Assembly: GCA_036396535.1 (NCBI GenBank)
Contig: DASWKR010000065.1
Coordinates: 62,001 to 126,000, forward strand
Length of the DNA: 64,000 bases
Origin: Acidimicrobiia bacterium
GTDB lineage: Bacteria; Actinomycetota; Acidimicrobiia; Spongiisociales; UBA5794
Direction of reading: 5' to 3'
Below the pieces are notes generated by a model. The model was not told the DNA's origin and made no database searches. It saw only the letters and a program-made list of their open reading frames with translations. The translations under genes were made by a program, and so were the position numbers. Below are positions 12,767 through 23,984 of the stretch, one piece after another. Numbering within the stretch: the first letter of the stretch is position 1; every line of letters starts with the position of its first letter.

Positions 12767-15700
12767 TCAGGGACTGGTTGCGGCAGCCACGTGTGCCCTC
12801 CCTGCCGGGCACAGGTGCAGGAAGTCGCAGCCGCCGCACGCCGGCCCGGGGCGCGGCGCGAAGGCCTCACCCCCAGCCGCAGTCATGAGACCCTCGAGCC
12901 GTGCCCGAGCGTCCTCCATCCAGGCGTCGTCCACCCGACGGCTCACCTCGACCGCTTCGCCCGATCCGAGATACACGAACGAGACCGTGAGATCCACGGG
13001 AGGTTCCGACGAGACGGCGCCCTCGGCAGCGGCGACGGCGTACGCCTCCAGCTGGACGTCTCGCGCCGGGTCGTCGCGGTGCCTGCCGCTCTTGAAGTCG
13101 ACGATCTCCCACACGCCCGGCTCGGGCTCGTACACGGCGTCGATGCGGCCCCTCACACGCCCGGACGGCAGGCGCAGGTCGATCGGGACCTCCGTGAAGC
13201 GAGGGCGCGCATCGGCGAATCGGGATCCCAGGAAGGCGCCATACGGATCGCCACCCGACCCCGCGTCGCCCTCAGCCGGGGACAGGTCGTAGAGGTCGTC
13301 GTCGAGCTCGTCGAGCGGCAACTGGCCCCGGTTGTGGAGCTCGATGCGTCTGTGCACCTCGACGCCTCTCGTCCGTGATGCGTCGGGACGCCGCGGGAGT
13401 CGCTCGACCTCACTCCACAGGAACCTCTGGGGACACGACGCCAGGGTCACGAGACCGGTCACCGAGACGCTGAGGAGCGCCGGCCCGCGCTCGATCGTCG
13501 GTGGTTCCGGCAGGCCGTCGAGGAGGAGCTCGATCTGCTCCATGTGGGCATCGTATGCCTGCCTGCCCTGTGCGACGTGGCGCGCCGTCCATTCCGGGTC
13601 GTCGGCGATCGCCCGTAGCGCAGCCTGCCAGCCGCCCGGGAAGACAGGGTCAGGCGCCCCTTCCGGGGTCGGGAAGCGGAGCAGGTCAGGCGGCCCACCT
13701 TGGTCGTCCACGTCGACCGAGAGGGTGACTCCCTTGGTTCGCCTCGTGGTGGCGTGCAGCTCGCTCGGCTCGCGGGGCTGACCGGACGTGTACCACCAGG
13801 CCCCGGACACGTAGAGGCGCGCCTTTGCCCTCGTCACGGCGACATACGCAGTCCGCCACTCCTGGGCGACATGGCGCACCCGCAGCTCCTCTTGGTTCTC
13901 CTTGTTGCTCCGGTCGAGCCTCGGGAGTGCCTCGGCGTCGAGCCTGAGCCCGAACGGCAGGTACTGCGCCCGCTCGACGGGGTTGTCGAAGCCGAGGGAC
14001 TTGGCGGGAAACGCCTCCCGGCTCACGGCGGGTATGAAGACGGTGTCCCATTCGAGGCCTTTGGCGCGATGGACGGTTATCAGGCTGACGGCGTCTTCCT
14101 GGCCGATGCGGGCCGTGTCGAGCTCGTCCGTTGCCCGCTCCTCGGTGAGCAACCCGAGATAGCCGAGGAAGGCGTCGAGAGACGGGCGGCCCTCCAGGGG
14201 GCTCCACTCCTCGGCGAGGTCGAGGAATCGATAGAGGTTGAGCCTGCCCGTCAGGGCGCCGGCGGGGTCGAGCGCCTCGACCTCGGCCCAGGTGTCCGTG
14301 ACGTCGAGGATGCGCCTGCACAGTTCCACCAAGGCGACGGACTGGGCGTCGGTCAGGAGCTTGCGGAACGTGTCGCGGAACTCCTCGAGCCGCTCCCGGG
14401 CCTCCCCGGCCAGCCCCTCGACATCGTCGAGCCTGTCGACCGCCTCGAGGAGCGGCCAGCCGAGCCCTTCCTCTGCCGTGGAGCCGCGACCCATGGCCCC
14501 CACCCACCCCGCCAGCGGGACGAGGTCCCCGAGGCCGAGTCGGTAGCGGCCCCCGAGCAGGATCCTCGCCAACGCCGCCGAGTCGTCGGGTCGCCCCAGG
14601 ACCCGCAGCCATGCGTGCAGGTCTGCGACTCGGGGGACATCGAGGAGCCCGCCGAGCGAGGCGACCTCGTGCGGGATGGAGTGTCCCTCCAACGCCTCCC
14701 GCACGAGTCCCATGTGGCGGTTCTTCCTGAAGAGCAGGGCGATCTCGCGCCAGGCAACCCCCTCCTCGTCGTGGATCCGCCTGATCTCCTCGGCGATCGA
14801 CGCCGCCTCGTCGACGGACGTGGCGTGGTAGCTCAGGACGAGGTCGCCGTCACCTGCGGTCTCGACCGGGTGGAGGACGTTGAACCCGGCCATCGGGTCG
14901 GCTTGGCCCCGCACCCGGTTGGCGAGCTCGAGGATGATCCGCCCCGACCGCCTGTTGAGGCTGAGCGGGAGGGTCTCGGCCGGTCGACCGTCGCTGCGCC
15001 TGAAGTGCTCGGGGAACGCCTTGAAGTTCTCGAGCGAGGCGCCCCGCCACTCGTAGATCGTCTGGTCACTGTCGCCGACCGCGGTGACCGGGAAGCCGTC
15101 GCCGAACAGCTCCCGCATCAGCTCCCGCTGACCGGGGTCGGTGTCCTGGTACTCGTCGAGCAGCACGAGCGAGTACCTCGACCGCACTCGAGCCCTGATC
15201 TCCTCGAAGCCGGTGACCAGACGGTGGGCCGCTTCGACGAGGTCGGCGTAGTCGACCACCCCGAGCGATCGCTTGGCCGCCTGGAACCTGGCGATGATGC
15301 CTGCCAGCTCGATGCGCTTCTCCCAGACGGGGTCGGCCGACGGCGGCACCGAGGCGAGCAGGTCGTCCACCCCGAGAAGGTTCTCTCCGAGTTGCCTGGC
15401 GAGCATGGCCGCCTCAGCCACGCGATGGGGCGGCGAGGACATGTCGAGGGCGGCGTAGCGGGCTCCGCGCAGCGACTCCTCGAGGAGTTGGCGGGTATAT
15501 CCCCCGCCGATGACCTTGGCGTCTCGCTCGACGCCCACCAGAGCGCCGAACTCCTGGAGCAGCTTCCACGCGAACCCGTGATACGTCGTCACGTCGACCT
15601 CGCGGCCGTCATGCGCCATCTCCGGTAGGCCGGTGCGCAAACGGTCTGCGAGCTCGTCTGCGGCCTTGTTCGTGAACGTGATCCCGAGGATGCTCTCCGG

Positions 15701-15865
15701 CGCCATCCCCCCCTCGACGAGGCGAACCGCCCGCAGGACGATCGTGGTGGTCTTGCCGGTGCCCGCTCCGGCTGCGACGCGGAGCGGCTCGAGCGGGTAG
15801 TCGACGATCGCCGTCTGCTCGGCGGTCATCTCGAACGGCTGGTTCGACGCGTCGGTGGCCGTCAT
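12767..15865 (-). CDS. UvrD-family helicase-nuclease, AdnB-like
   Basis: SF1A helicase joined to a RecB-family nuclease, 1032 residues. Walker A is AAGAGTGKTTT near the N-terminus, motif II is LLDEYQDTDPG, motif III GDSDQTIYEWRGAS, motif VI AYVAVTRAKARLYV. The C-terminal nuclease has GRIDAVYEP and VDFKSGR, and four cysteines (LASCPQRF plus CGGCDFLHLC) that match an Fe-S staple. The ATG at 15865 overlaps the previous gene stop (ATGA). Two such genes in tandem are the layout of mycobacterial adnA-adnB, which resect double-strand breaks. Confidence 0.85.
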   Translation of the reverse strand: MTATDASNQPFEMTAEQTAIVDYPLEPLRVAAGAGTGKTTTIVLRAVRLVEGGMAPESILGITFTNKAADELADRLRTGLPEMAHDGREVDVTTYHGFAWKLLQEFGALVGVERDAKVIGGGYTRQLLEESLRGARYAALDMSSPPHRVAEAAMLARQLGENLLGVDDLLASVPPSADPVWEKRIELAGIIARFQAAKRSLGVVDYADLVEAAHRLVTGFEEIRARVRSRYSLVLLDEYQDTDPGQRELMRELFGDGFPVTAVGDSDQTIYEWRGASLENFKAFPEHFRRSDGRPAETLPLSLNRRSGRIILELANRVRGQADPMAGFNVLHPVETAGDGDLVLSYHATSVDEAASIAEEIRRIHDEEGVAWREIALLFRKNRHMGLVREALEGHSIPHEVASLGGLLDVPRVADLHAWLRVLGRPDDSAALARILLGGRYRLGLGDLVPLAGWVGAMGRGSTAEEGLGWPLLEAVDRLDDVEGLAGEARERLEEFRDTFRKLLTDAQSVALVELCRRILDVTDTWAEVEALDPAGALTGRLNLYRFLDLAEEWSPLEGRPSLDAFLGYLGLLTEERATDELDTARIGQEDAVSLITVHRAKGLEWDTVFIPAVSREAFPAKSLGFDNPVERAQYLPFGLRLDAEALPRLDRSNKENQEELRVRHVAQEWRTAYVAVTRAKARLYVSGAWWYTSGQPREPSELHATTRRTKGVTLSVDVDDQGGPPDLLRFPTPEGAPDPVFPGGWQAALRAIADDPEWTARHVAQGRQAYDAHMEQIELLLDGLPEPPTIERGPALLSVSVTGLVTLASCPQRFLWSEVERLPRRPDASRTRGVEVHRRIELHNRGQLPLDELDDDLYDLSPAEGDAGSGGDPYGAFLGSRFADARPRFTEVPIDLRLPSGRVRGRIDAVYEPEPGVWEIVDFKSGRHRDDPARDVQLEAYAVAAAEGAVSSEPPVDLTVSFVYLGSGEAVEVSRRVDDAWMEDARARLEGLMTAAGGEAFAPRPGPACGGCDFLHLCPAGRAHVAAATSP

Positions 15866-18831
15866 GAGAAGTCCTCCCCTCCCTGCGGCCACTTTGGACA
15901 GACCTGCCTGACCGGGCACCGATCACACTCCTCACTCACCACCGGGTCGAAGCGCTCGTCGCGGATCCCCTCGGTGATGGCCACCATGGTCGCCATGACG
16001 TCTCCCGCCCTGGCGGTGTCGAAGGAGCGCGTGGTGAGGCTTCTGCTCTCCTTCGCCGGATACCACATCTCGGCAGCCACCGGGGTGCCGTGCGAGGTGA
16101 CGTCCGGGTCTGCAGCCGCCGCGGCCAGGTAGAAGCCGAGCTGGATCGAACGCGCTGCCTGCTCGAGCGTCGGCGGATTGCGGGTCGTCTTGTAGTCGAC
16201 GATCTTGATCCGCCCGCTCGTCTCTTCGATCCTGTCTGCGTACCCCACCCAAGGCACATCTGCGATCCGGAGGTGGAGCTCTCTCTCGAGAGCGACCACG
16301 TGGCCACCCTCGGGCCAGACGTCGTAGAGACGCCTCAGCAAGTCGACTCCTCTGGCGTGCCAGGCGTGCGAGAACGGCGGCCCACCGAACGTCGCATGGT
16401 CGAATCGATCGGCGAGCAGTCCGAGGGCCTCGTCGAGCGAGCTCCTCGGCTCGCCGCGCTCGAAGGCGGCGTGCTCCGCCGCCTCGAGCACGTCATGGAC
16501 GAGCGTCCCGAACTCGGCGTAGATCGAGGTGGCATCGCCGATCTTCAATCGGCGCTCCAACGCGTAGCGGCGTGGGCATCGCTCGTACGACTCGGCCTGG
16601 CTCGGGCTCAAACGAAGCGTGGCGGCATCGACGAGGCCGCCGTCGTCACCACGGCGACGCACGCCGTGGAACGTCGATGTCTCCCGCAGGCCCCACCTCG
16701 GGCCGTTCGCCAGTGCGCTCGCGGCCGCCATTCGCTCTGGTGCGGACCGAGCAGGATCGGTGAGGATCCGTCGCAAGTGGCTCTCCGCCTCCCTGCGCGA
16801 CACGGGCCGTGCCTCGGTGTCGACCGGGGTGATGGCCCCGTCGAGCGATTCGGCTCCCGCCACGAGGGGCAGGAATCGGCTCGGCATGCCTCGCCCCTCC
16901 TCTGCGCCGGACGCCGTCGCCGTCCACACCACCCGCTTCGTTGCCCTCGTCATGGCGGTGTACGCCAGGCGGCGCTCCTCCTGGAGTCGGAAGCGGAGGT
17001 ATCCGGCCGTGTCGAGGTCGTCGTGGCGGAGGATGTGACGCACGCCGAGCAGGCTGTCGCGTCTCCTCAGATCGGGGAACACGCCCTCGACCGCATCGGC
17101 GATGAAGACGACGTCGAACTCCAGGCCCTTCGCCTGGTGAAGCGTCGTGAGGGTCACCCGATCCTCGTCGGGCCTCGTGTAGCTGAGGAGGGGACGGGCC
17201 TCGAACTCCTCCTGATCGAGGAGCGTCCGGTAGTCGACGAGCGTGACCGACGGGTTGCGCTCGCCCCAGCGGTCGATGACCTGTGCCAGAGAGCTCCATG
17301 AGCGCAGCTCCCGGCGTCGCCCGGTGCCGCTCACCAGCTCGGCGATCTGCGGGAGCGACGACCAGAGGTGCCAGAACCCACGTCGTACGGGCCACTCGGC
17401 CGCCCAACGCGGCTCGTCGAGCAGGTCGGCGAGGGCGTCGCCTTCCGGCACTAGCGCCCTGATGGCTTGCGACCAGGGTATCTCGTCGACGGCTCTTGCC
17501 CTCTCGATGTCCCGGAGCCGCCCCAGCGAGACCCTGAAGAGCGGGCCGAGGAGGATGCGGCGCACCGCCCTGTCCAGCTCGGAAGGCACGTCGGCACCGG
17601 CCGCCACAGCGGTGGCATCGAGCACGAACCGCACTGCGGGCTGCTCTGCCAGGCGACTCTCCGGCGGATCGTGGGCGATCCTCCTCCGCTCCAAGCTCCG
17701 CGACATCTCAGGCAGGAAGCGCCGCTTGCTACGCACCAGAACCCCGATGCGGCCGAGGGGGACCCCGTCGACGAGATGGATCCGTTCGATCTCGGAGGCG
17801 ATCCACTCGGCCTCCGCCGTCTGCTGGTCGAAGCGGTGCACGACGACGCTGCCACCGGACGAGGCGGGGGTGACCCGGCCCGCCGACCCCGGCAGGTCGC
17901 GCTCGGTGACCCGAACGGCAGACTCGAGTATCGCCTCGGGACACCGAAACGACGTCGTGAGGACGATCCTGCGCGCCGGGAGCCCCGCCGGGTCGCGGTG
18001 CCGGTCGGGGAACTCTGCGATGTTCTCCAGGACCGCCCCTCGAAAGCTGTAGATCGACTGGTACGGGTCGCCGGCCACCGTGAGGTTGCCGTGGGCGGCC
18101 GTCAGCTCCTCCACCAGGACCGCCTGGGACAACGTCGTGTCTTGGAACTCGTCGACGAGGACGTAGCGGGGCACGGCGTCGGGGTGCATCCGGGCGACGG
18201 CGACGGCTTCGGAGAGGAGCTCGCCGTAGTCGATGCGCCCGGCGGCGCGCAGCGCCGAGCGGTATCGGTGACGGAACTCGGGCAGGCCCCGCCAGTCGGC
18301 TCGGCCGGCGGCCAACTCCGACAGCTCGTCGTCCGTGACGAGTTGCTCGCTCGCTCGCAAGAGGAAGTCCCTGATCTCCCCGGCAAAGGTGGTCGTTCCG
18401 AGCAGTCCGCCAAAGGCTGCCGACCACGCTCCCCGGTTCTCGTCGGCGAGCAAGTCGCGCACGAGCGCCGCCTGCTCCGGGCCGGTCAAGATCTGAGGCG
18501 GCGAGCTCCAGCCGATCGAGGGTCCGTGCGCTTCGATGAGCCGGGCCGCATACGAGTGGAACGTCGACACGTCGACCTCGGCCACAGACCGATCGAGCCG
18601 GGTCCTGACGCGCTCGCGAATGTCGGCAACGCCGCGACGGCCGAAGCTCAGCACGAGAACCGCCCCGGGAGGGATTCCCCTCTGGTCGATCAGGTGTACG
18701 ACGCGCCTCACGAGGAACTCGGTCTTGCCCGCGCCCGGTCCACCGACGACGACCTGCGGGCCGTCCGTCAGCGCGATCGCATCCGGCCAATCCTCCGGGC
18801 GAATGCGCCACTCGTTCTGCACGTCCTCCAT
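15862..18831 (-). CDS. UvrD-family helicase-nuclease, AdnA-like
   Basis: First of the helicase-nuclease pair, 989 residues from the ATG at 18831, which is 7 nt after a TAGGTT box (the ATG three codons upstream would lie inside that box). Motor motifs: GGPGAGKTEF, YVLVDEFQDTTLSQ, GDPYQSIYSFRGA, YTAMTRATKRVVW. Nuclease: YADRIEETSGRIKIVDYKTTR. Cysteines in ESYERCPRRYALE and CDRCPVRQVC give the C, C-x2-C-x5-C Fe-S pattern of AddB/AdnA nucleases. It probably forms a heterodimer with the overlapping downstream product for recombinational end processing. Confidence 0.85.
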   Translation of the reverse strand: MEDVQNEWRIRPEDWPDAIALTDGPQVVVGGPGAGKTEFLVRRVVHLIDQRGIPPGAVLVLSFGRRGVADIRERVRTRLDRSVAEVDVSTFHSYAARLIEAHGPSIGWSSPPQILTGPEQAALVRDLLADENRGAWSAAFGGLLGTTTFAGEIRDFLLRASEQLVTDDELSELAAGRADWRGLPEFRHRYRSALRAAGRIDYGELLSEAVAVARMHPDAVPRYVLVDEFQDTTLSQAVLVEELTAAHGNLTVAGDPYQSIYSFRGAVLENIAEFPDRHRDPAGLPARRIVLTTSFRCPEAILESAVRVTERDLPGSAGRVTPASSGGSVVVHRFDQQTAEAEWIASEIERIHLVDGVPLGRIGVLVRSKRRFLPEMSRSLERRRIAHDPPESRLAEQPAVRFVLDATAVAAGADVPSELDRAVRRILLGPLFRVSLGRLRDIERARAVDEIPWSQAIRALVPEGDALADLLDEPRWAAEWPVRRGFWHLWSSLPQIAELVSGTGRRRELRSWSSLAQVIDRWGERNPSVTLVDYRTLLDQEEFEARPLLSYTRPDEDRVTLTTLHQAKGLEFDVVFIADAVEGVFPDLRRRDSLLGVRHILRHDDLDTAGYLRFRLQEERRLAYTAMTRATKRVVWTATASGAEEGRGMPSRFLPLVAGAESLDGAITPVDTEARPVSRREAESHLRRILTDPARSAPERMAAASALANGPRWGLRETSTFHGVRRRGDDGGLVDAATLRLSPSQAESYERCPRRYALERRLKIGDATSIYAEFGTLVHDVLEAAEHAAFERGEPRSSLDEALGLLADRFDHATFGGPPFSHAWHARGVDLLRRLYDVWPEGGHVVALERELHLRIADVPWVGYADRIEETSGRIKIVDYKTTRNPPTLEQAARSIQLGFYLAAAAADPDVTSHGTPVAAEMWYPAKESRSLTTRSFDTARAGDVMATMVAITEGIRDERFDPVVSEECDRCPVRQVCPKWPQGGEDFS

Positions 18832-18838
18832 GGACCGC

Positions 18839-18844
18839 AACCTA
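18839..18844 (-). promoter_or_regulatory. TAGGTT -10 box for the AdnAB-like operon
   Basis: Hexamer on the minus strand, with 7 nt (GCGGTCC) before the ATG at 18831. It decides between two possible starts of the helicase gene. Confidence 0.45.
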
Positions 18845-20660: not shown

Positions 20661-21443
20661 TCAGCTCTCCTCGGCGAAGGCGGGGCAGATGCTCTTGTAC
20701 TGGCACCAGTCGCACAGGCTCGACGGCCTCGGTGGGAACTGGTCGCGTTCGATGGCCCGGTTGATCGCTTGCCACAGCGCCCGGAGCTGCCGCTCCATGG
20801 CGTCGAGTTGCCGGTCGTCGACGTCGATCTCGTAGACGGTCGGCCCGTTGAGGTACATGAGCCGCAGCGTCGTCGGGGTCCTACCGACTCGGCGTCGGAC
20901 GAGCAGAGCGTAGATCTTCAACGCGAAGAACGCCGGAATGGCGTACTGCTCGGGGGGCGCCTTACCCGTCTTGTAGTCGGTGATCACGAGCTCGCCTGCT
21001 CGCTCCTCGATCCTGTCCAGGATGCCGCGGATCACGATGCTGTCGAGCTCTTCGAGCATGTCGAGCTCTCGATCGAGCGGCTCGATGGCGGTGGGGTCCT
21101 CGACGCCGAAGTAGTTGGCAAGGATCTCCATGCTCTCGATTCCCCACGCGCGCTCATCGTCGACCGACGAGAACAGGTCGGCGAACTCCGTGGGGCGCAG
21201 TTCGACCCACGCTTCCCGGAAGAGGTCGAAGAGGCGCTCCGGTGTGCGCCCCTTCGAGTCCTCGTCGAACAATCGTTGGAGCGCCAGATGGGCGGTGGTG
21301 CCGCGCGCCTGATAGACCGTCGGGGGCATCTCGATGCGATCGATGGCCTTGAACTTGAAGAGCTGCGGGCACAGCTTGAAGTCGCTCGCCCGGCTGGGGG
21401 AGAGCGTCTCTAGCAGAGAGGCCTCGGTGGCTTCGACCGTCAT
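20661..21443 (-). CDS. RecB-like PD-(D/E)XK nuclease with Fe-S cysteines
   Basis: Stand-alone 260-residue nuclease domain starting at the ATG 21443, 7 nt after TATATT. Catalytic motif: GILDRIEERAGELVITDYKTG (Asp, then Asp-x-Lys). Cysteines in FKLCPQLFKFK and LCDWCQYKSIC form the C, C-x2-C-x5-C Fe-S staple seen in Cas4 and AddB. No helicase part. Similar actinobacterial proteins (the Rv2119 type) are annotated RecB-family exonucleases. No cas genes are nearby, so a Cas4 role is unlikely. Confidence 0.85.
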   Translation of the reverse strand: MTVEATEASLLETLSPSRASDFKLCPQLFKFKAIDRIEMPPTVYQARGTTAHLALQRLFDEDSKGRTPERLFDLFREAWVELRPTEFADLFSSVDDERAWGIESMEILANYFGVEDPTAIEPLDRELDMLEELDSIVIRGILDRIEERAGELVITDYKTGKAPPEQYAIPAFFALKIYALLVRRRVGRTPTTLRLMYLNGPTVYEIDVDDRQLDAMERQLRALWQAINRAIERDQFPPRPSSLCDWCQYKSICPAFAEES

Positions 21444-21450
21444 CCTCTCG

Positions 21451-21456
21451 AATATA
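21451..21456 (-). promoter_or_regulatory. TATATT -10 box for the RecB-like nuclease
   Basis: Consensus-like hexamer on the minus strand; CGAGAGG (7 nt) separates it from the ATG. The GAGAGG could still act as a weak ribosome site if transcription starts early. Confidence 0.45.
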
Positions 21457-21518
21457 GGCGGTGGCTCCGACAGAAACCACAAACGTGTAGTTCGATGTGA
21501 CGGGCGTATGCCAGCGAC

Positions 21519-21591
21519 GCTCGCCGGGCACCGGCGGTTGCTCGCCGGAAGCCGGCGGTTGCTCGCGAAACTGGTGACTGACTCGCGAAAA
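21519..21591. repeat. Phased CTCGC direct repeats upstream of RNA locus A
   Basis: CTCGC occurs at 21520, 21541, 21562 and 21582. The first two units (CTCGCCGG..CCGGCGGTTG) are near-identical 21-mers, and the last two share CTCGCGAAA. Spacing of 20-21 bp equals two DNA turns, so all boxes face the same side of the helix, ending 18 bp before the putative -35. Confidence 0.6.
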
Positions 21592-21608
21592 CGAACCACC
21601 GGATTCGG

Positions 21609-21638
21609 TTGCAGGCGCGGCGACCCGATCGTTACGGT
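21609..21638 (+). promoter_or_regulatory. Putative promoter of RNA locus A
   Basis: TTGCAG (21609-21614), 18-bp spacer, TACGGT (21633-21638). It aligns with the stronger promoter of locus B at the same distance from the CGCGAAA repeats. Confidence 0.45.
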
Positions 21639-21644
21639 TCCGGC

Positions 21645-22143
21645 CGCTTCGGGAGCTCAGGCTTCGGAAGCCACCCCGAGGCAACTCGCAAGAGGGACTC
21701 GAGGCACGCGGACGGGCTACCGGACGTGAGCCCGAAGCTCGGGGATCCGCCGCCGAGGCTTCGGTTTCGGTGCGGAGTTCGGAGCGGTCGCAAGGCCGCC
21801 CCGAGCGCCTCTCGGGCTTCGGTCCGCTGAGGCGGCGATGCCGGCGCCGGCGGGCAACCGTCGGGGCACGGGGCCACGCCTTTTCGGCAGGGCCCCGTCA
21901 GGGATCGCACCATCGGTCGGAGACGCTTCGGTGGATCCGGTCGATACCCGGAAAGGCTTCGGCCTGGATGGGGAGGTACGGGGGGTTGGCCCAGAGGGTC
22001 GGCGGCTTGCCGAAGACTCGCTGGGTCGCCGCCCGAGCCACTCGCCACGGTGAGAGCCGCGGGGAGGTGCTCGCCGGGTCTCGATCCGGTGGCGGCAAAG
22101 CCCCGAGAGGGTGAGGCTTCGGCCGAGCTTCCTCGGGGTTTTT
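21645..22143 (+). ncRNA. Candidate structured RNA A (about 0.5 kb, UUCG-hairpin rich)
   Basis: No conserved coding frame crosses this interval, yet it holds many GC stems, often capped by TTCG or cTTCGg loops: 21660-21672 (GGCTT/AAGCC), 21713-21734 (CGGGCT/AGCCCG), 21868-21898 (8-bp ACGGGGCC stem), and several GGCTTCGG sites. It runs from a promoter-like element to a T-tailed terminator. It shares upstream repeats and the final hairpin with locus B. It lacks the GAGGAAAGTCC core of RNase P RNA and the tmRNA ends. Function unknown; the transcript ends are estimates. Confidence 0.5.
22101..22143 (+). terminator. Rho-independent terminator of RNA A
   Basis: CCCCGAG(a)GG pairs with CCTCGGGG around an inner TTCG hairpin, followed by TTTTT at 22139-22143. 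It may also serve the convergent lipoprotein gene ending at 22152. Confidence 0.75.
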
Positions 22144-22151
22144 GCCGCGAC

Positions 22152-22820
22152 TCAGTCGATCGGCTCGCACCCGGGCACGCGCTCGAGGAACGTGACGCGG
22201 TCGTCGGCCTCCGGCCCCGACAAGCGGCCGGCGAGATGCGCCGGGTCGTCACCGTCGATCGAGAATCCCCACACGTCCACGTCCACGTTCCCGACCTCGG
22301 TGAGGCGATCGCCGTACGCCTGGCGCACCTCGGCGAGGCTGCTGCCGATGCCGATCCCCTCGGCGGTTGCCAGGCCGAGCTCCCACGGATCGACGCCTGC
22401 CAGTGAGGTGTCGTGGTCGAACCCGTAGGTCCACGACGAGAGCGTCCCGCTGCCGGCGCCTCCGTCGTTCGAGAGGCCTTCGTCGTTCGAGAGGCCTTCG
22501 TCGTACGAGAGGATCGCGTAGAAGCTTCCCCAGCCGACTGCGCGCACCTCGGCCCCGGGGCACGACCCGTAGACCTCCGATCGAGAGGCGATCCACCCGG
22601 AGTCCTTGTCGGGCGATCCGAGCAGCTCGGTCAGCGCCGCGATCACCTCCTCCTCCTGGTCGCCGATGGCGGTCGGCCCGATCCCGCCGGGCGACAGAAC
22701 GGGGCGCTCGAGCTGGGACGGCACGGTGCCTGCGCCACCGCCGCAGGCTGCGGCGACGATCGCCAGCGAGAGGACGAGGGTTGCGGCGACAGTGGCAGGA
22801 GGGCGCAGGGCTGCAGCCAT
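22152..22820 (-). CDS. Hypothetical lipoprotein (222 aa) with internal repeat
   Basis: Signal peptide of about 25 residues ending IVAAAC, so probably lipid-anchored outside the membrane. The mature part includes a conserved-looking C-terminus (GIGIGSSLAEVRQAYG, a motif seen in many actinobacterial secreted proteins of unknown function). Residues around 105-118 repeat DEGLSN twice. The ATG lies 6 nt after TAGATT. The gene sits between the two RNA candidates, convergent with A and divergent from B. No function assigned. Confidence 0.75.
   Translation of the reverse strand: MAAALRPPATVAATLVLSLAIVAAACGGGAGTVPSQLERPVLSPGGIGPTAIGDQEEEVIAALTELLGSPDKDSGWIASRSEVYGSCPGAEVRAVGWGSFYAILSYDEGLSNDEGLSNDGGAGSGTLSSWTYGFDHDTSLAGVDPWELGLATAEGIGIGSSLAEVRQAYGDRLTEVGNVDVDVWGFSIDGDDPAHLAGRLSGPEADDRVTFLERVPGCEPID
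22464..22513. repeat. 18-bp in-frame tandem repeat inside lipoprotein gene
   Basis: Unit GTCGTTCGAGAGGCCTTC starts at 22464 and 22482, with a third degenerate unit at 22500. It encodes DEGLSN copies; copy number may vary by slippage. Confidence 0.75.
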
Positions 22821-22826
22821 GGAGGC

Positions 22827-22832
22827 AATCTA
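22827..22832 (-). promoter_or_regulatory. TAGATT -10 box for the lipoprotein gene
   Basis: Minus-strand hexamer 6 nt before the ATG at 22820, an exact leaderless spacing; no clear -35. Confidence 0.45.
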
Positions 22833-22933
22833 GGTTGGTAGGCGAGACGGCCGTGCGGTCTCACGGACGGCTCTGGGTGGGACGGATGGCCCCGACCCGG
22901 CACTGAAAGGACGAATGGCCAGGTCAGCCACGG

Positions 22934-22961
22934 TCGCGAAACAACGCGGTGAGACGCGAAA
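22934..22961. repeat. CGCGAAA direct-repeat pair upstream of RNA locus B
   Basis: TCGCGAAAC (22934) and ACGCGAAAAC (22954) lie exactly 20 bp apart, the same arrangement as the last two repeats before RNA locus A (21562 and 21582). Confidence 0.55.
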
Positions 22962-22979
22962 ACCAAACAGCGTTTCGGC

Positions 22980-23008
22980 TTGACCCGTGATGGGCTGACG
23001 CGTACATT
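22980..23008 (+). promoter_or_regulatory. Strong sigma-70 type promoter of RNA locus B
   Basis: TTGACC (22980-22985), a 17-bp spacer and TACATT (23003-23008): the best -35/-10 match seen in the window. Predicted start is near 23015. Confidence 0.65.
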
Positions 23009-23014
23009 CCCTGC

Positions 23015-23290
23015 TGTCGCCGGGAAGGGAGACCGACCCGGGGACCCGGCAGCCCGCAAGGGCCGCAGGCGGTGGGTCTCTTCGGAGACTCCCGAGGTCC
23101 AGGAAGCTCACCTCCGCGAGGGGGTGGCGCCTACAGGGCGACCGGATTCGAGCCTTCGGGCTCGGAGTCGGCCGGAGGACCGGCCCGGTTCAGGCTTCGG
23201 CCAGGACAGGGAACATCGGCCACCGTGAGGTAGACCGATTGGTGAACCCCGAGAGGGCGAAGGTTTCGGCCGGAGCTTCCTCGGGGTTCA
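23015..23290 (+). ncRNA. Candidate structured RNA B (about 0.28 kb, UUCG-hairpin rich)
   Basis: Non-coding stretch with a run of strong stems: 23074-23093 (GGGTCTC-TTCG-GAGAC..CCC), 23145-23169 (GATTCGAGCC-TTCG-GGCTCGGAGTC), 23170-23185 (GGCCGG-AGGA-CCGGCC) and the end hairpin. It begins 7 nt after a consensus-like promoter. The next gene has its own -10 after the hairpin, so this is not simply its 5' leader. Shares control region and 3' hairpin with RNA A. No known family recognised. Confidence 0.55.
23245..23288 (+). terminator. Terminal hairpin of RNA B
   Basis: AACCCCGAG(a)GG pairs with CCTCGGGGTT around an inner TTTCGG hairpin. Sequence is close to the RNA A terminator but has no T-run beyond TT. 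Confidence 0.6.
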
Positions 23291-23335
23291 TCGCGTTGCT
23301 GCCCGAATCGCCACCGCGGCGAGCGGGACGCTCTC

Positions 23336-23348: not shown

Positions 23349-23984
23349 ATGACATTCCCGCACCGGTTCCTCACCGACGACGAGAGCATCGTCAGGCAGT
23401 TTCGCCCCCATTGGCGTCTCCTGTTCCTCCCCATGCTGTGGGTCGTGGCGGCGATCGTCGCCATCGTGCTCGTCTACCAGGTCATCCCGCCGGAGAACGG
23501 AACCGCCGACCTGATCACCTCGCTCGTCATCGCAGCCGCCCTGATCCCGCTGTCCGTCGTCCCGCTCGTCGACTGGTGGTTCACGCAATACGTGCTCACG
23601 AGTGAGCGGCTCATCACTCGCTCAGGCGTCATCAGCCGCAGCGGCATCGAGATACCGCTCGTCAACGTCAACAACGTCCTCTTCCACCAGTCGGCGTTCG
23701 AGCGAATCCTCCGTTCGGGCGACCTGCTCGTGGAGTCGGCCGGGGAGAGTGGGCAGAGCCGCTTCTCCGACATACCGCAACCGGAGGAGTTCCAGGCGCT
23801 CCTCTATCGCACCCGGGACGAGCTCGTCAAGGCGCGCGCCCGCGAGGAGGGCTCGTTGATCGGCGAAGCAGTCGCACCCGACCCGACCACCCAGCTAGAG
23901 CGCCTCGCCAAGCTCCATCGCGACGGCGTCATCACCGACGACGAATACGCCGCCAAGCGCCAGGCGCTTCTCGACCAGATCTAG
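23349..23984 (+). CDS. Bacterial PH-domain (YdbS/DUF304-like) membrane protein with SHOCT tail
   Basis: 211 residues. Two hydrophobic segments (LLFLPMLWVVAAIVAIVLVY and a second around LITSLVIAAALIPLSVVPLV) are followed by a bPH2 domain: YVLTSERLITRSGVISRSGIEIPLVNVNNV. The last 30 residues (QLERLAKLHRDGVITDDEYA) are a SHOCT motif. Anchored in the membrane with a cytoplasmic PH domain. Role unknown; such proteins are common in Actinobacteria. Confidence 0.85.
   Translation: MTFPHRFLTDDESIVRQFRPHWRLLFLPMLWVVAAIVAIVLVYQVIPPENGTADLITSLVIAAALIPLSVVPLVDWWFTQYVLTSERLITRSGVISRSGIEIPLVNVNNVLFHQSAFERILRSGDLLVESAGESGQSRFSDIPQPEEFQALLYRTRDELVKARAREEGSLIGEAVAPDPTTQLERLAKLHRDGVITDDEYAAKRQALLDQI

Follow-up and report, generated by a model that had tools for sequence, protein, structure and literature searches.

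Two intergenic regions in the genome of an Acidimicrobiia bacterium are almost certainly genes for paralogous structured noncoding RNAs, predicted here by sequence comparison, whose family extends across the class and forms tandem arrays in the order to which this genome belongs. In that order, the RNAs are very probably part of a replication regulon that is marked by a paired CGCGAAA site and also includes dnaA, nrdJ and dnaB, with ftsK added in some genomes. The two regions lie in a stretch of 64,000 nucleotides, all of which was analysed (the window). They had been singled out in an initial annotation as gene-less regions carrying a promoter, a run of hairpins and a near-identical closing hairpin, and had been read as a pair of paralogous structured RNAs that keep similar ends and differ in the middle. 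The window contains both regions as described, and comparison with relatives, which uncovered abundant compensatory changes, bears out this reading. The family, undescribed, class-wide and not in Rfam, is an addition to the bacterial noncoding RNAs. No published account of these RNAs, of the CGCGAAA pair or of noncoding RNAs in Acidimicrobiia was found in a literature search with thin coverage of subscription journals.

The features of the locus are collected in Table 1, where RNA starts are inferred from promoter position and RNA ends from the 3' hairpin. The nuclease gene, divergent from RNA1, is regularly found beside the array in this order, and its true start is probably near 21442. The stem of the RNA1 3' hairpin reaches approximately from 22091 to 22149 (GCGGCAAAG...TTTTTGCCGC), the 5' hairpin of RNA2 is GUCGCCGGGAAGGGAGACCGACCCGGGGAC, and both regions end in a closing hairpin CCCCGAGAGGG...CTTCCTCGGGG. 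The upstream block that the initial annotation held to be shared by both regions is indeed present at each, as CGCGAAA-N13-CGCGAAA followed, at a constant distance, by a promoter of sigma-70-like type; what had been missed is that it contains a regulon site, found also before dnaA, nrdJ, dnaB and ftsK. The predicted lipoprotein gene between the RNAs is real: relatives at 33-35% identity occur in three related loci. It lacks conservation at most loci, and a Pfam search detected no domain in its product. A short tandem repeat with a CGTTCGAGAGGCCTTCGT-type unit lies inside this gene at 22463-22512, and is probably the source of a sub-threshold mir-1896 match in the window.

Table 1. Features of the RNA locus (positions in the window) and the evidence for each
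Feature	Position	Strand	Evidence
Two UvrD-type helicase genes with C-terminal PDDEXK_1 nuclease domains	12770..18840	-	Pfam; conserved context
PD-(D/E)XK (PDDEXK_1) nuclease gene	20661..21599	-	Pfam (1.8e-33) and synteny
Paired control site 1, CGCGAAA-N13-CGCGAAA	21564..21590	+	Sequence; reversed-pattern control, 0/59 genomes
Predicted RNA1 promoter, TTGCAG-N18-TACGGT	21609..21638	+	Sequence; fixed TTG position after paired site
Predicted RNA1, ~505 nt, ~12 hairpins	21645..22152	+	Folding z -6.27; hairpin count; tetraloop density
Conserved 3' hairpin of RNA1	22101..22138	+	R1 E-value 1.4e-11; covariation
Lipoprotein gene between RNA1 and RNA2	22152..22820	-	33-35% identical relatives
Paired control site 2, CGCGAAA-N13-CGCGAAA	22935..22961	+	Sequence
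Predicted RNA2 promoter, TTGACC-N17-TACATT	22980..23008	+	Sequence; geometry as at nrdJ promoters
Predicted RNA2, ~280 nt, ~9 hairpins	23016..23298	+	Folding z -3.68; alignment; hairpin count
Conserved 3' hairpin of RNA2	23247..23286	+	R1 E-value 5.5e-14; covariation
bPH_2 and SHOCT protein gene, downstream of RNA2	23349..23984	+	Pfam; synteny

Both RNAs are predicted to fold into rows of hairpins. Strong hairpins capped by GNRA or UUCG loops occur at 13.8 per kb in RNA1 and 14.1 per kb in RNA2, compared with 0.82 per kb on the rest of the plus strand of the window, and none was found on the minus strand of the two RNA stretches. Positions 21601-22100 are the top 500-nt stretch of the window for the density of such hairpins, and the folding z-scores, relative to dinucleotide shuffles, are -6.3 for RNA1 and -3.7 for RNA2. 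In 46 full-length predicted RNAs, which are 149 to 835 nt long with 4 to 22 hairpins each, 298 of the 431 sense hairpins end in a GNRA or UUCG loop, as against 5 of 374 hairpins of the complementary strand (antisense control) and ~5% GNRA caps in shuffled sequences. Bulges are rare in these RNAs, and their internal loops are symmetric and rich in purines (GA/GA, A/A, GAA/GGA). Unpaired runs of at least 8 nt outside loops are absent in 37 of the 46, which disfavours an antisense-like action. The middle sequences have diverged between relatives, and the number and sequence of the hairpins vary freely, an unusual architecture in which hairpins are conserved in form. Selection on the DNA or on the complementary strand was rejected, since the tetraloops and G-U pairs suit only a plus-strand RNA. 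A protein-coding reading was also rejected because the ORFs inside both regions have no homologue in 20 related regions, where the flanking genes do have homologues.

Compensatory base changes, sought in relatives as the initial annotation had proposed, are abundant in the 3' hairpin and in the minimal RNAs. The class-wide 3' hairpin contains 57 double-changed cells, where shuffles give 19.6 and slid-partner controls no more than 21; because such cell counts depend on relatedness, the slid controls carry more weight than the shuffles. The alignment underlying R1, a covariance model of the 3' hairpin, has 23 double-changed cells against 9.7 in shuffles, in the shortest RNAs (four hairpins in ~160 nt) both sides have changed at 14 pairs against 6.7, and a five-genome alignment of a 460-nt form agrees with the covariation elsewhere. 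Taken with the strand-specific tetraloops that run through the middle, these compensatory changes argue for selection on the RNA itself. The seven CCCCGAG/CUCGGGG pairs are invariant in 24 divergent sequences from across the class, so that selection at this position extends beyond pairing. A general terminator hairpin was considered and rejected, as R1 matches nothing in the window's genome except the two RNAs. Where one genome has tandem RNA copies, their 3' hairpins are often the same or almost the same in sequence (L018, L101, L102), which suggests that the copies duplicated recently or evolve in concert.

A DNA search with RNA2 matched 57 of 99 relatives, mostly at the 3' hairpin and often as two or three clustered copies. 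R1 finds the hairpin in 98 of the 110 genomes from the window's order, where copy number runs from one to five (two in the window's genome), and exact-pattern matches in named records fall mostly in metagenome-assembled genomes of Acidimicrobiia or Actinomycetota. In all 17 order genomes that were mapped (six families), a stand-alone nuclease gene adjoins the array; a bPH_2-SHOCT gene is near it in 15 of the 17, and the neighbourhood also includes the two genes for UvrD-type helicases that carry nuclease domains. In family f6 the nuclease gene is still beside the RNA, the 3' hairpin is shortened and GCAA-capped, and no PH gene was found in the stretches fetched. An exclusive link between nuclease and RNA was rejected, since adjacency is no proof of a functional pair and the whole gene block is syntenic. 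The initial annotation had also offered a mobile element as a candidate role. This suggestion was abandoned, together with a viral or repeat-derived origin, in view of the two copies in the genome, the constant neighbours in the 17 genomes and the lack of any match in the viral contigs searched.

Beyond the order, weak R1 matches in other families have the sequence CCCCGAGRRGC...GGUYACUCGGGG in common. Chance was rejected as their explanation after construction of a second model, R2, from the order sequences together with sequences from other families. R2 matches 204 of the 394 Acidimicrobiia genomes, spread over more than 30 families. These include genomes that contributed sequences to the model and so match by construction, and R2 reaches E-values of ~1e-11 in families that contributed none; both models were calibrated briefly, making the E-values rough, and the genomes surveyed are mostly metagenome bins. 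Orthologues of the nuclease and PH genes both flank the RNA in family f13, and a PH gene is nearby in family f19. Among 396 genomes of the phylum, R1 gave one match outside the class. The 3' hairpin match is missing in six of six genomes of genus g47 (G187, G207, G229, G250, G262, G269), suggesting that the RNA has been lost, is dispensable or has strongly diverged in this genus, and a few other genomes also have no R1 match; these gaps count against the overall explanation given below. The RNA of family f23 holds an extra conserved hairpin with the sequence GUCCGACAC (L252-L255, L260-L263, L265).

Of 59 genomes of the order, 58 carry the pattern CGCGAAA-N13/14-CGCGAAA, with between one and six occurrences apiece, and none carries the reversed pattern that served as a control. 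The paired site is present at nearly every RNA copy for which a promoter was identified; in these promoters nt 19-21 after the site form the -35 TTG, whose G is invariant (43 of 43). Among 60 paired sites fetched mostly from outside the main RNA locus, 44 lie upstream of dnaA (23), nrdJ (16), dnaB (3) or ftsK (2), and others precede a small ORF (4) or a gene with LexA-like boxes (3) or belong to a further RNA (1), with 8 unassigned. The window's own genome has two sites away from the locus, one before dnaA and one before nrdJ. The distance from site to TTG equals that of the RNAs in 14 of 16 nrdJ promoters. The sites at dnaA have no such fixed promoter spacing, which counts against the overall explanation given below. 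The fixed spacing between site and promoter points to a putative activator at the CGCGAAA pair and suggests activation, not repression. From the regulon as a whole, the RNA genes are probably replication-regulated. An origin-proximal location was rejected, as the RNAs lie ~0.73 Mb from dnaA in a 2.2-Mb single-contig genome (G069). The sites before dnaA, nrdJ, dnaB, ftsK and the RNAs reveal a candidate replication regulon in a class for whose cell-cycle control no published description was found, and offer a direct handle for finding the putative regulator.

The CGCGAAA pair is absent from RNA promoters outside the window's order, a further point against the overall explanation. In families f23, f42 and f18, usually two to five TGTGGATAA-like repeats occur within the 150 nt that precede the RNA promoter, compared with a local background of ~0.04-0.21; three f23 loci have at most one repeat, f52 has one, and the RNA promoters of f13 and f19 have none. 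The repeats, often spaced ~20 bp apart (L253-L266), look like DnaA boxes, for example the ones that precede dnaA in the window's genome. As a sequence feature, DnaA-box-like repeats before RNA promoters are suggestive of a connection with replication in these families also.

Searches of the window with Rfam 15 at curated gathering scores yielded no match, and the RNAs in relatives and in other families had none either, tRNAs being the only matches found; sub-threshold matches, for example to F6 and PtaRNA1, were far below the cut-offs. The comparison with known families that the initial annotation had called for is thus negative at the locus and in relatives. Its view that the RNAs are not RNase P RNA, tmRNA or 6S RNA also holds. 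RNase P RNA (RF00010), which has a single essential gene in each genome, and tmRNA (RF00023) were rejected because the genome's copies are at C30:94934-95251 and C61:9745-10100, respectively, and 6S RNA (RF00013) because it has no match in the genome and the predicted fold is a hairpin array, not a rod. Three further systems invite comparison. In the Ro60/Y-RNA system a structured noncoding RNA is bound by a protein; the window RNAs are likewise structured, but this system was rejected because the TROVE domain of the partner is absent from the window's genome and from 56 of 59 genomes. CsrB/RsmY-type sponge RNAs carry many repeated hairpins with GGA loops and titrate a protein, as the many hairpins of the window RNAs could also do, but such a sponge was rejected on the majority of the caps, 298 of 431 being GNRA or UUCG. 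The nucleoid-associated RNAs, including naRNA4, are hairpin-rich and repeat-derived; the window RNAs are also hairpin-rich and could act at the nucleoid, but are not repeat-derived, and have their own promoter and regulon site.

The best overall explanation, which combines the RNA family, the replication regulon and a scaffold or decoy function, is on balance a probable one. Taken on its own, the last part, inferred from architecture alone, is a fair prospect short of probable: the RNA may act as a stable scaffold or decoy that binds protein multivalently. The array of hairpins would then present many similar rods, each consisting of a helix, a symmetric purine-rich internal loop and a GNRA or UUCG cap, and their number and sequence would be free to drift. 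The invariant CCCCGAG...CUCGGGG 3' hairpin would act both as recognition element and as stable 3' end, and co-production with dnaA and nrdJ would allow the free amount or the place of the protein to be set by replication state. This reading is drawn from hairpins whose form persists while their sequence and number change, from the scarcity of stretches for base pairing, and from the sequence invariance of the 3' hairpin. Against a scaffold stands the more than fivefold range of RNA lengths (149 to 835 nt), which is not obviously tolerable for a specific one. More tentative is a broader proposal of a class-wide replication-coupled RNA with interchangeable tetraloop hairpins, in which architecture and not sequence is selected. 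It would share its production signal with dnaA and nrdJ, under a putative CGCGAAA-binding regulator of replication genes, and serve as a multivalent scaffold in the chromosome cycle. Such a role, if borne out, would place the RNA among the rare noncoding RNA components of that machinery.

Several other explanations were weighed against the scaffold or decoy. Ms1-type RNAs are ~230-300 nt long, are widespread in Actinobacteria, diverge beyond sequence similarity and accumulate in stationary phase, and their genes are neighboured by a HAD hydrolase with oxidoreductase, CpaE, 'PH' and other annotations (PMC9130861). The window RNAs resemble Ms1 and 6S RNA in being independent noncoding RNA genes of similar length, in Actinobacteria, with fast divergence outside a few elements, and they could be a far-diverged analogue or homologue, a putative RNA polymerase binder that tunes transcription with growth state. 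The absence of a 6S match from the window's genome and the bPH_2 gene flanking the locus fit this idea, which is nevertheless unlikely: a chain of individual hairpins is predicted instead of one rod with a central bubble, the copies are in tandem with a replication-type site, Rfam gives no match at the locus, and the lengths range from 149 to 835 nt. Moreover, the usual HAD-hydrolase neighbour of Ms1 is not among the neighbouring genes identified, and the regulon consists of replication genes, in contrast to stationary-phase accumulation. Large ornate bacterial RNAs form protein-free oligomers, GOLLD and ROOL assembling into cages (PMC12286853), and with these and OLE the window RNAs share a large, highly folded form without conserved coding capacity. 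Contacts of tetraloop hairpins within or between molecules, giving a homo-oligomer, would suit the very high GNRA content and the purine-rich symmetric internal loops. Such an RNA-only assembly is improbable, since hairpin number and sequence vary freely among relatives, unlike a cage of fixed contacts, and minimal members have only four hairpins; the window RNAs also differ in having no Rfam match, no set length and a chromosomal locus where the neighbours stay constant.

It could also be argued that the RNA is a by-product, and that selection acts on transcription through the locus or on a strong terminator between the nuclease and PH genes, conservation being highest in the 3' hairpin and in the promoter together with its control site. 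The strand-specific tetraloops across the middle and the compensatory changes, which indicate selection on RNA, and the restriction of the R1 hairpin to the two RNAs in the window's genome make this very improbable. Equally remote is a base-pairing regulatory or small-protein-encoding RNA. Trans-acting small RNAs can control cell-cycle genes, at least as outlined in the report on EcpR1 of Sinorhizobium (PMC4414408), which gives a precedent for the former; but accessible single-stranded stretches are few, the inner ORFs lack homologues in related regions, and the middle sequences are not conserved.

Some of the remaining CGCGAAA sites have features of their own. At L161, L166, L186 and L194 the paired site precedes a small conserved ORF (MDPFGHPDL...), which at L194 is followed by a SAF/CpaB-like gene, a hint that pilus genes may be in the CGCGAAA regulon. 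At L156, L176 and L177 it precedes a coiled-coil-like gene that has no Pfam match, with a promoter that also contains LexA-like boxes. The nrdJ gene of the window's genome (L146, C36), which encodes a class II ribonucleotide reductase, apparently contains two inteins, at ORF residues 219-364 and 574-745, one with a Hint-type match and one with a LAGLIDADG domain.
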